From a virus, in IMG/VR virus record IMGVR_UViG_3300028920_000269, positions 1 to 23,816 of that record: a stretch of DNA of 23,816 nt. One strand, given 5' to 3'. Both the position numbers and the translations under genes were made by a program. The notes under the pieces were generated by a model. It was not told the origin of the DNA, searched no databases, and worked only from the letters and a program-made list of their open reading frames with translations. This document shows positions 1,965-5,192 of this stretch, piece after piece; the first letter of the stretch is position 1; every line of letters begins with the position of its first letter.

Positions 1965-2105
1965 ATGAAGAAGCAATGGACAATATATCCAACAAAAAAG
2001 CAGTTAGAACACATAAAGAAACAGGCGAAGGCCCTTGGAATTTCTGTGTCTGCGTATGTTCAGTTATTAATTGAAGGGGATAGAGAGATCGGAGAAAAAA
2101 AATAA
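1965..2105 (+). CDS. 46-aa ribbon-helix-helix (Arc/CopG-like) DNA-binding protein
   Basis: ATG at 1965 follows AAGGAG and encodes 46 residues, ending in TAA directly before the ATG of the primase-helicase. The fold is readable: a short basic strand (KKQWTIYPT, residues 2-10), helix A (KKQLEHIKKQAKALG, 11-25), and a turn at I26-S27 leading to helix B (VSAYVQLLIEGD, residues 28-39). This is the Arc/CopG/MetJ layout, whose dimers insert the strands into the DNA major groove at palindromes. It sits beside the symmetric operator at 1902-1916, so autoregulation and control of both early operons is the likely job. Binding of the heptamer repeats downstream of the next gene is another possibility. 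Confidence 0.75.
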   Translation: MKKQWTIYPTKKQLEHIKKQAKALGISVSAYVQLLIEGDREIGEKK

Positions 2106-4274
2106 ATGACTGATATTTCATGTATCGCAAAAGTTCTCAGGGATAACGGTCTTTTTGTGGACTCAATAATTTGTGACGATAAAATACACAGATGTCAGAG
2201 TTTGGCAAAAGACAAGAAAAATCTGGACGGCTGGTACACTGTAAAAGAATATTCCGGAGAATATTATTGTTATTATGGCTGCTGGATAAGAGGCTTTTCA
2301 GAACGGTTTTCAACAAGACCGGAGGCTACAAACAACGGTAACAGCCATGAAATATGGAAGTTTTTAAATGAAATTCAAAAGCGTGACGAGATTGAAAGAA
2401 AAAGAAATGCCGTGAAGTCCGCAAGCGCTTTTTTGTCTCAATGTGAGTCGGCTTCAGGACACCCATATCTTGATTCAAAAAATATAAATGATTGTGGTGC
2501 AATGGTTAATGGAGACAACCTTGTTATAAAAGCCGTTAACTCTGAAGGGGACGCTGTCGGATATCAGACAATTTCAAAAACAGGCGAAAAGCGGTTTATG
2601 ACTGGTAGTGTAATGAAGGGCGCTTCCTTCACGATTTACGGTGATGCAAATGTCGTTTGTATATGTGAGGGGTTCGCAACCGGCGCTACAATCCATAAGG
2701 CAACAGGGTATATGGTTGTGTGTGCATTTTCATCAGGTAACCTTCCTGTAATTGTAGGCGATATCGTAAAAAAACATCAAAAATCTAAAGTGATCGTTTG
2801 CGCAGACAATGACCACCACAACAACCATAAACAATGTGGGAACGCAGGGTTAAAAGCTGCAAAGAAAGCTAAGGACGACCACGGCGTTGATTATGTGTTT
2901 CCAGAAGGAATAATTGGAACTGATTTCAATGACATGGCGGTTGAAAAAGGGATTGATGCCGTAAAATCGACCATCATAAAATCAGTGTCGGTAAAGGTCG
3001 TCACCCGTGAGGACATCAAAGACGATTCTATTTCTCTTAATCTCACAAATGATATAATCGACCCAGGCGGTTTGATATCTCTTGGAATGAAGGCGTTCTC
3101 TGCTGATGATATCCCGAATATAGTTCAATATAATTTCCCGCTTGTTTTGTCTGTAATTGCCAGGGCTATTACCGGAAAAATAAAATTCGGTAACGTATGG
3201 CCGAACTTTTATAATATCAAAGTTGGTGGAACCAGTACCGGAAAGACAGACGCAGACAAAGCAATGAAGCAGGCAATAAAACTCTCAGGAATAACAGATT
3301 TTTACGGGCCTACTGACTTTTCATCAGGGCCAGGACTTTTGAGGGGGTTGTCAGAATATCCACAATGTTTAATCACATTAGATGAAATAAGCTATTTATT
3401 CAAGAGATTTGACAAGCCTGACATGAACTCAGCAGGGAAAATATCAGCGCTGCTTGAGTTATACACCAGTACCGGACACCAGCTTATTAAAACATATGGA
3501 GACAGCAAGAATAAAATAATTATAAATAACCCATGCGTAAACATCATCGGAAACGCTACGCCAGGTATATTCAGCGACTTAAAACCGGATGACCTGGAAA
3601 GCGGATTGATTCAGCGGTTTGATTTCTGGTGCTATGATGGGGATATTCCATACCGTAATCCGTTCTCTGGCGACCAAAACAGAAACCTTGATATATTCGT
3701 TAAAAACATAGCTGAAATAATAAGCATAGAAAATGAAAACCTGCCTGATTTATTCAAAGTTTTAAACGAGCCCACCACCATAATACCGGATTCAAAATGC
3801 AGGGAAATATTAAACGATTTCTCGGTTGACATAATCAACCGGGCTAACAGTGAAGATAACGCAGGGGCGAAAGGGATAATCTCACGAGGTTATCATTTGT
3901 CCGTAAAATACGCAATGCTCCATATGGCGTCCGAAAGGGTATCAACCGGACTGTTTGAACCAATGACAGAAAAAGACCTCGAATATGGAATCAAACTGTC
4001 AAACACTCTTATCAACTGGAAGCTGAAAGTTTTATTGTCAAACATTTCAGAAGGGGAATTCCATAAATTATGCCAGGACTTTAAAAGCGGAATTAAAATT
4101 GCGACAAAAAATAATATGGCTCCCACAGGTGCTGTAATCGCAAACAAGAAAAAATCTCTAAAAAACATCACTCCAAGAATATGGGACGATATTGTAAAGG
4201 TCTTATCTAAGCGCAATGAAATTTTTCTTGATGAAACAGGCAGATCAACAAAATATTTCCTGGTGAAAGAATGA
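2106..4274 (+). CDS. TOPRIM primase fused to P-loop helicase-like ATPase (replication protein)
   Basis: The 722-aa protein has a TOPRIM domain at about residues 160-290: CEGFATG (187-193) carries the conserved Glu, and ADND (233-236) plus GTDFND (271-276) carry the acidic residues. A P-loop NTPase follows with Walker A GGTSTGKT (374-381) and Walker B LITLDE (422-427, acidic pair Asp426/Glu427). An arginine-rich segment near ESGLIQRFDF (498-507) recalls DUF3987-type phage/plasmid primase-helicases. The first 70 residues contain few cysteines, so a classical zinc-binding primase domain is not obvious. The start is fixed by the abutting TAA|ATG junction with the RHH gene and a GGAG site. It probably initiates phage DNA replication at the repeat array immediately downstream. 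Confidence 0.8.
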   Translation: MTDISCIAKVLRDNGLFVDSIICDDKIHRCQSLAKDKKNLDGWYTVKEYSGEYYCYYGCWIRGFSERFSTRPEATNNGNSHEIWKFLNEIQKRDEIERKRNAVKSASAFLSQCESASGHPYLDSKNINDCGAMVNGDNLVIKAVNSEGDAVGYQTISKTGEKRFMTGSVMKGASFTIYGDANVVCICEGFATGATIHKATGYMVVCAFSSGNLPVIVGDIVKKHQKSKVIVCADNDHHNNHKQCGNAGLKAAKKAKDDHGVDYVFPEGIIGTDFNDMAVEKGIDAVKSTIIKSVSVKVVTREDIKDDSISLNLTNDIIDPGGLISLGMKAFSADDIPNIVQYNFPLVLSVIARAITGKIKFGNVWPNFYNIKVGGTSTGKTDADKAMKQAIKLSGITDFYGPTDFSSGPGLLRGLSEYPQCLITLDEISYLFKRFDKPDMNSAGKISALLELYTSTGHQLIKTYGDSKNKIIINNPCVNIIGNATPGIFSDLKPDDLESGLIQRFDFWCYDGDIPYRNPFSGDQNRNLDIFVKNIAEIISIENENLPDLFKVLNEPTTIIPDSKCREILNDFSVDIINRANSEDNAGAKGIISRGYHLSVKYAMLHMASERVSTGLFEPMTEKDLEYGIKLSNTLINWKLKVLLSNISEGEFHKLCQDFKSGIKIATKNNMAPTGAVIANKKKSLKNITPRIWDDIVKVLSKRNEIFLDETGRSTKYFLVKE

Positions 4275-4565
4275 ACTTACGAACTTACAACAACTTACAA
4301 CTCGAAGCTGTAAGTTTGGAAAAGAAAATAAATGTAATGATTTTAATAATATATATAAAAAATAATAATAATAATAATATAACTTACAGACTTATTCTAT
4401 ATTGTACAACTTTTTATTATATGGGGAAATGTATCTTTTTGTGTTCATTTTTTGGCTTTGGGGGTGTAGACGGCTGTAAGTTCGTAAGTTTCGTAAGTTA
4501 CGGTAAAATCAATAGGTTATGGCTGTAAGTTTGGCTGTAAGCAATTTCAAAAGCTGTAAGTTTGG
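4274..4565. repeat. GTAAGTT/AACTTAC heptamer (iteron) array, candidate replication origin
   Basis: This 330-base gap after the primase-helicase holds ten exact copies of one heptamer. AACTTAC occurs at 4274, 4282, 4292 and 4381; GTAAGTT occurs at 4310, 4476, 4484, 4493, 4525 and 4556. A near copy (GTAAGCA) lies at 4537. Three copies extend to GCTGTAAGTTTGG (4307, 4522, 4553), and a 10-bp tandem pair lies at 4282-4301. The copies cluster at both ends, with AACTTAC mostly left and GTAAGTT mostly right. They flank an A/T-rich core (about 4325-4440) containing an AAT run. Clustered repeats plus an AT-rich core next to an initiator or primase gene is the usual layout of phage and plasmid origins. 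Function is inferred. Confidence 0.7.
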
Positions 4566-4603
4566 AATTAATTGGATGAAATTACATTAAAGGAGATAAA
4601 ATT

Positions 4604-4846
4604 ATGGACGCAGAACAAAGACATTTAATGTTTTATTTCGAGATGGAGAAGGCTTGCCACGAAAGTGTTAAACACATGGGTCTGTTTTTAGATTTTTACA
4701 CAAAATTAAAATTACCATGTGGCTTTCAGGATGAAAATTATGATGAAGAGTGTGAAAAGAAAATCGAAGAGGTTACTCGCGCAATACAGGACGCACAGGT
4801 AGCTATGCACGGTGTGCTTTATGAAATGGAACAGGTGGAAAAATGA
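4604..4846 (+). CDS. small helical protein of unknown function
   Basis: ATG at 4604 follows AGGAGATAAAATT, a good ribosome site, and encodes 80 residues. The product is acidic and largely helical, with heptad-like spacing in its second half (EECEKKIEEVTRAIQDAQVA). It has no signal peptide, membrane span or recognisable motif. It is the first gene after the repeat array and overlaps the next gene as ATGA, so the two are co-translated. I do not recognise the family. Confidence 0.65.
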   Translation: MDAEQRHLMFYFEMEKACHESVKHMGLFLDFYTKLKLPCGFQDENYDEECEKKIEEVTRAIQDAQVAMHGVLYEMEQVEK

Positions 4847-5070
4847 CATGCCCGATATGCAAAGGAAAATCAGAAGGCTATCCGATACGCCATAACGGCG
4901 AATGTATCAACATATATACCCATGATTACGATCAGACCGCCTGCAAGGTTTGCTGGCTTATGCGGGTAAAAGAGTTGGAAGCAGAGGATATCGACGAAAG
5001 GCGGGCGCTGAATGCGTCAGATCGCCCAGGTCGAGAGATAATTGAAAATGAATGGGAAGGTAAGGGGTAA
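4843..5070 (+). CDS. small Cys-rich, zinc-ribbon-like protein
   Basis: The 75-aa product begins MTCPICKGKSEG and later has ACKVCWLMRVKELEAED. The two CxxC knuckles are spaced as in a treble-clef or zinc-ribbon fold, followed by a charged helix. The start overlaps the upstream stop (ATGA). Phage early regions often carry such small zinc proteins, which bind DNA, RNA polymerase or partner proteins; the target here is unknown. The acidic C-terminus makes simple nonspecific DNA binding less likely. The gene ends 25 bases before the pentanucleotide array. Confidence 0.65.
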   Translation: MTCPICKGKSEGYPIRHNGECINIYTHDYDQTACKVCWLMRVKELEAEDIDERRALNASDRPGREIIENEWEGKG

Positions 5071-5095
5071 AAATTTTATGGTGTTTAAAATATTC

Positions 5096-5155
5096 ATGGC
5101 AAGGCTTGGCAAGGCGAGGCGGGGCATGGCGAGGCAAGGCCTGGCAAGGCATGGC
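5096..5155 (+). repeat. pentanucleotide array, 12 units of NNGGC
   Basis: Twelve consecutive 5-base units share GGC while the first two bases vary: AT, AA, TT, AA, GA, GG, AT, GA, AA, CT, AA, AT. After one broken unit (AAATC) a further ACGGC follows at 5161-5165. It lies between the zinc-ribbon gene and a 42-aa gene and has no stop codon in any frame on the plus strand, so it creates spurious ORFs rich in Ala, Arg, Gly and Gln. The strict conservation of GGC with free variation of the other two bases is unlike plain slippage. Confidence 0.85.
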
Positions 5156-5192
5156 AAATCACGGCAAAAGTTACACAAAACAAGGACAAATA

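Follow-up and report, generated by a model that had tools for sequence, protein, structure and literature searches.

A probable phage replication origin formed by opposed GTAAGTT iterons directly downstream of a TOPRIM-DUF3987 primase-helicase gene

The window, i.e., the whole stretch of 23,816 nucleotides analyzed here, is an IMG/VR virus fragment (IMGVR_UViG_3300028920_000269). Positions 4274-4562 are very probably a phage replication origin that has the protein of the directly upstream gene as its initiator. The array of repeats at these positions, its location, its geometry, the predicted fold of the upstream protein, and the recurrence of such arrays in relatives are read from the sequence, and on this basis an origin is by far the best reading of the array and a well-supported one. 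Three features lead to it: the array lies immediately 3' of the gene for a fused primase-helicase, relatives keep it with changed letters, and it has the geometry of the PICI pri-rep-ori regions. The same features uphold the candidate phage origin proposed in an earlier, sequence-only reading.

The gene and the array have the following features.

2106-4274, plus strand: primase-helicase of 722 aa with a TOPRIM primase, an MCM-like AAA+ helicase (DUF3987), and a C-terminal winged helix; proposed initiator
2655-2957, plus strand: TOPRIM primase domain, aa 184-284 (Pfam match)
3060-4031, plus strand: MCM-like AAA+ helicase domain, aa 319-642 (structure match)
4056-4265, plus strand: predicted winged helix, aa 651-720, candidate iteron reader (from the model; its similarity tracks the iterons)
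4274, 4282, 4292, and 4381, minus strand: AACTTAC copies
4310, 4476, 4484, 4493, 4525, and 4556, plus strand: GTAAGTT copies
4274-4298, minus strand: left iteron set, AACTTAC at 4274, 4282, and 4292
4310-4316, plus strand: iteron in reversed orientation, inverted pair with 4292-4298
4321-4400, no strand: A+T-rich stretch, candidate unwinding element (88-100% A+T per 40 bases)
4381-4387, minus strand: internal iteron, on the A+T-rich side of the gap
4476-4562, plus strand: right iteron set, GTAAGTT at 4476, 4484, 4493, 4525, and 4556

An exact-word count found ten copies of GTAAGTT or AACTTAC at 4274-4562, the same number as reported before. Twelve copies were found in the 23.8-kb record in total, only two of them outside the array. 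Dinucleotide shuffles gave 2.7 heptamers per window, i.e., about 0.03 per 292 bases, so the earlier estimate of approximately 0.04 is about right. The maximal count for any 7-mer was 5 among 2000 shuffles of the array region and likewise 5 for any 322-base stretch of 20 shuffled windows. The copies form two mostly opposed iteron sets, 4274-4316 and 4476-4562, and the A+T-rich stretch previously noted between them was found again at 4321-4400. The claimed polarity, AACTTAC to the left and GTAAGTT to the right, holds for 8 of the 10 copies and fails for those at 4310 and 4381. Three copies (4310, 4525, and 4556) share the longer word GCTGTAAGTTTGG, as had been stated. The adjacency of the array to the TOPRIM primase-helicase gene is also borne out: the first heptamer starts on base 4274, with which the TGA codon of ORF 2106-4274 ends. 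As a conserved unit, GCTGTAAGTTTGG was considered and rejected; 21 viral stretches in which CTGTAAGTTTGG lies close to a second TGTAAGTT gave 0 matches to three initiator profiles.

ORF 2106-4274 matched the Pfam families Toprim_3 (1e-10) and DUF3987 (1e-6) and was assigned to DNA primase in PHROG; the match to DUF3987 (PF13148) is marginal, with 28.6 bits at a gathering score of 27. At E 0.01, only Toprim and DUF3987 families were found in the primase-helicase, and no match to DUF927 or HTH_56 was found. The AlphaFold2 models had a pLDDT of 83 for the full-length protein and a pLDDT of 90 with a pTM of 0.88 for the helicase only. In VIA-align, the full-length model matched MCM with Z 18.3 over 272 residues (rmsd 3.6, 13% identity), and the helicase-only model did so with Z 18.1. 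T7 gp4 chains were among the structure matches of the full-length model, and the SaPI PriRep1 structure (7pds) was among the structure matches at rank 43. The modeled C-terminus has the winged-helix order, with helices at 651-668, 675-681, and 690-702 and strands at 706-709 and 716-720. A phmmer search against PDB sequences gave no match for the primase-helicase; in view of this lack of sequence similarity to any solved chain, the assignments to MCM, T7 gp4, and winged helix are statements of fold. According to the models, the primase-helicase has an MCM-type AAA+ fold.

Genes for a DUF7173 protein, an AAA_24/Sak4-like annealing protein, and a DUF669/SSB-like protein lie to the left of the primase-helicase gene and are transcribed away from it. 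Genes for a RusA-like resolvase, a terminase, a portal protein (PF12236), and a GP7-type capsid protein (PF20911) lie to the right. Satellites are recognized by an incomplete virion gene set, and here the portal, capsid, and terminase genes are all present; the window belongs to an ordinary tailed phage, not to a satellite. GC skew, previously suggested as a check, has no turning point or other feature at 4.3 kb and is uninformative on this fragment, because its genes mostly run one way. Separately, a run of twelve GGCNN pentamers, with GGC constant and the other two bases variable, was found at 5098-5157, not codon-phased and between two small ORFs. Nine-unit GGCNN arrays were found in at least 120 stretches of viral contigs, in many cases several to a contig.

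None of the relatives found exceeded about 40% identity. The combination of the same heptamer with the same protein family was also not found, neither in plasmids nor, for A1, in genome contigs. The sample of loci with a helicase of this group included 39 loci, the window and 38 relatives. The strongest short-repeat array of the locus was found within about 200 bases 3' of the stop codon in the window and in 11 of the 38 relatives (L124, L120, L003, L018, L128, L021, L134, L135, L015, L133, and L002). The iterons differ among these loci, being TGTACTTT, TTTGTACAG, CCGAAAACA, GGGGGAAAT, CATTAAACA, and others, and are akin within the clade of the window (GCTGTAAGT, CTGTACTTT, TTTGTACAG, and TTTTGTACG).

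Relatives lacking the array had been named as evidence that would speak against an origin. Arrays with other iterons directly follow the primase stop codon in the nearest relatives whose sequence reaches far enough (L002, L003, and L015, about 40% identity); the sequence of L001 ends too soon to show an array. For many distant DUF3987 relatives, however, none was detected. More than half of the sampled DUF3987 relatives have no clear array after the primase-helicase stop codon, a count that is an upper limit, since exact-7-mer scoring overlooks degenerate arrays (L017, L119, and L108). No array was detected in Roseobacter CRP-901, Shewanella S0112, Serratia Rovert, PaMx25, and VPv62. These arrays may be really absent or may consist of degenerate repeats. 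In L003 (3960-6290), the helicase half and the downstream array are as in the window, and the N-terminal half gave no TOPRIM match. Thus, the primase half appears to be exchangeable while the helicase and the array stay together.

Arrays of this kind were also found behind other initiator families. About 20 other initiator genes (DUF3987, DUF927/Cch, VapE, and D5) have a two-sided array of similar length directly after the stop codon, with an iteron word that differs by lineage. Among cultured phages with DUF927 helicases, THSA-485A has ten copies of GGTAACC and Epona has ten copies of GGTGAAA. Ruminococcus phage phiRg507T2_3 (L346), also with a DUF927 helicase, has seven copies of GTAACAA and one small gene between the helicase gene and the array; this gene (3381-3557) is annotated as DNA-binding regulatory and looks RHH-like by eye. 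GCGTAAC was found nine times behind a VapE helicase gene (L342), AGTAACT six times behind a D5_N helicase gene (L166), and CGACAAA eight times behind the DUF3987 gene of Croceifilum oryzae (L332). Achromobacter phage phiAxp-1 is, like THSA-485A, a cultured relative in which an array is clear. The arrays are about 100-320 bases long, with a largest gap of 37-131 bases.

The window's own heptamer was searched for in viral contigs by a scan of the DNA alone, without regard to proteins, for AACTTAC occurring three times at close range; 80 of the 83 stretches were examined. In seven of the 80 (L041, L050, L069, L081, L086, L089, and L102), a DUF927/Cch helicase gene precedes the array at a distance of up to about 300 bases, with a gap of only 3 bases in L102. 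These seven stretches represent six distinct arrays, L081 and L086 being duplicates. The polarity of the window's heptamers is repeated in L081, L086, and L102. Many other arrays from this search are one-directional and not accompanied by a DUF927 or DUF3987 gene; by itself, the heptamer is therefore not diagnostic. One locus, L049, has a gene for a large terminase (2056-5103) that carries an intein/LAGLIDADG insertion.

In addition to the iterons, a second, constant element was found. In phages with PrimPol-DUF3987 proteins, the density of TAAGTNNTTGATTT with up to one mismatch is 0.51 per kb over the first 350 bases past the primase stop codon and 0.016 per kb elsewhere, a difference of about 30 times from the rest of the loci, although the element was first noticed in the same regions where this enrichment was counted. 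It is common to arrays with differing iterons (L108, L128, L134, L135, L018, L017, and L021) and forms an opposed pair in L108, L128, L134, and L135. Behind DUF927 helicases, the arrays of L069, L346, and L347 share CCGCATGGTTGAG, again with differing iterons. TAAGTNNTTGATTT is absent from the array of the window. In L071 (11376-11919), four TAAGTNNTTGATTT copies were found beside an AACTTAC array, and the locus has no primase profile match. By one reading, the constant element would belong to the primase. A two-part origin code is conceivable, if rather doubtful, in which a fast-changing iteron is read by the winged helix and a clade-constant TAAGTNNTTGATTT or CCGCATGGTTGAG is read by the primase or another shared part. 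Such a code, if true, would make it possible to find origins in many phage groups and to assign them to their initiators with no more than the sequence.

The C-terminal winged helix of the modeled primase-helicase is the likely binder of the heptamers. An RHH protein had been noted near the array, and no RHH family was found in the neighboring ORFs tested; with this protein missing, the winged helix that ends the primase-helicase becomes the likely binder. Iteron similarity correlates more strongly with C-terminal domain identity (Mantel r 0.40, p 0.002; partial correlation r 0.30, p 0.003) than with helicase core identity (r 0.29, p 0.011), a modest covariation that comes from 11-14 strong-array loci and from statistics that ignore phylogeny. 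After thinning of single loci or of the window's clade, the partial correlation was still significant (p 0.002-0.035).

An unlikely alternative keeps the origin and assigns the heptamers to a small neighboring protein or a host factor instead of the C-terminus of the primase-helicase. GTAAGTT also serves arrays behind initiators of another family, whose C-terminal domain is different (DUF927 with HTH_56), so the reader cannot be told from the letters by themselves, and phiRg507T2_3 has its annotated DNA-binding regulatory protein encoded between helicase and array. Against this alternative, no DnaA box (TTWTNCACA) was found inside 4274-4562 (the nearest is at 4694). Besides RHH, no other recognized DNA-binding family was found in the neighboring ORFs tested. 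The tracking of the initiator's C-terminal domain by the iterons also argues for the initiator as reader, and in SaPI and SCCmec the binding is done by the initiator itself (PMC7581432).

For the origin with the primase-helicase as initiator, we infer a mechanism in which the TOPRIM-DUF3987 protein would bind the heptamers with its C-terminal winged helix, and the opposed iteron sets would load helicase hexamers, one on either side. The A+T-rich gap would melt, the MCM-like motors would unwind the DNA, and the attached TOPRIM domain would prime it, giving a bidirectional start.

Readings other than an origin are far less probable. With its repeated short sites between genes of the same direction, the intergenic array could serve as a set of operators for a transcription regulator of the genes to the right. 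This is improbable: promoter-like matches in the array region are fewer than in shuffles, no terminator was found, arrays also follow initiator genes of several families, and opposed sets around an A+T-rich gap suit an origin better. A structured RNA or attenuator at the end of the primase transcript is highly improbable; the region folds as RNA better than shuffles (z -3.4), but any array of opposed repeats is foldable, single-stranded DNA folds of array pieces from two relatives are unremarkable, no Rfam family was found at gathering score, and the mixed-orientation arrays of L015 and L348 do not keep one hairpin. Iterons generally occur in partition and packaging sites too, yet a partition/incompatibility (centromere-like) site of a plasmid prophage or a packaging site is scarcely credible here, with no partition gene recognized among the ORFs tested, terminase genes about 3 kb from the array, and an array position tied to initiator genes in relatives.

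Among tailed phages known only from sequence, most have unmapped origins. If the reading as an origin is true, an origin can be found as an opposed array of short repeats at the 3' end of an initiator-helicase gene, with its reader named. The layout once called unique to phage satellites would then also occur in ordinary phages and with several families of initiators. This bears on the ways in which satellites and their helper phages either share replication signals or stay clear of one another's.

In the SaPI/PICI pri-rep origin, two sets of short iterons, which differ between elements, flank an A+T-rich stretch immediately behind the gene for the initiator helicase, and the initiator recognizes them through its C-terminal domain (PMC6092414; Ubeda et al. 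2007, cited in PMC7581432). PICI origins of this organization drive plasmid replication, and in 2018 the organization was described as not shared by any other known bacterial replicon (PMC6092414). The window has the same geometry, with the origin directly 3' of the initiator helicase gene and two iteron sets around an A+T-rich stretch, as well as an iteron of its own; the C-terminal winged helix predicted for its protein is a candidate for the recognition. In contrast, the window's proposed initiator is a TOPRIM protein with a DUF3987 MCM-like helicase, and the window is from a tailed phage with its own portal, capsid, and terminase genes. The PICI pri-rep-ori was functionally tested (PMC6092414).

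In SCCmec, the AAGTG repeats of the putative origin downstream of the Cch2 gene are bound by the C-terminal domain of Cch2 (PMC7581432), and this putative origin likewise combines an initiator helicase of a mobile element with repeats 3' of the gene. It has three direct 5-bp AAGTG iterons and a separate primase, CCPol-MP, whereas the window has two opposed sets and a protein without a DUF927 or HTH_56 match. The phage DUF927/Cch arrays (L069, L081, L102, L050, L041, and L089) share GTAAGTT/AACTTAC beside the initiator stop codon with the window, and the C-terminal sequence of their initiators is unrelated to that of the window's protein.

No earlier description of GTAAGTT arrays behind DUF927/Cch helicases and no paper describing an origin of the window's type were found in the literature searched, which excluded most subscription journals. 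Foley et al. are said to have reported in 1998 that the origin of Streptococcus thermophilus phage Sfi21 is a repeat-rich non-coding element downstream of a putative primase gene; it may be a tailed-phage precedent. The earlier remark that no described origin is built on GTAAGTT needs to be qualified, in that origins of this architecture are widespread and GTAAGTT is the word that one lineage uses in them. A helicase function in mobile elements had been predicted for DUF927 and DUF3987 (PMC5862659), and the PICI and SCCmec layout is published. Thus, the array of the window probably represents a known kind of self-recognizing origin in a new setting: a tailed phage, a TOPRIM initiator with an MCM-like DUF3987 helicase, and a new iteron.
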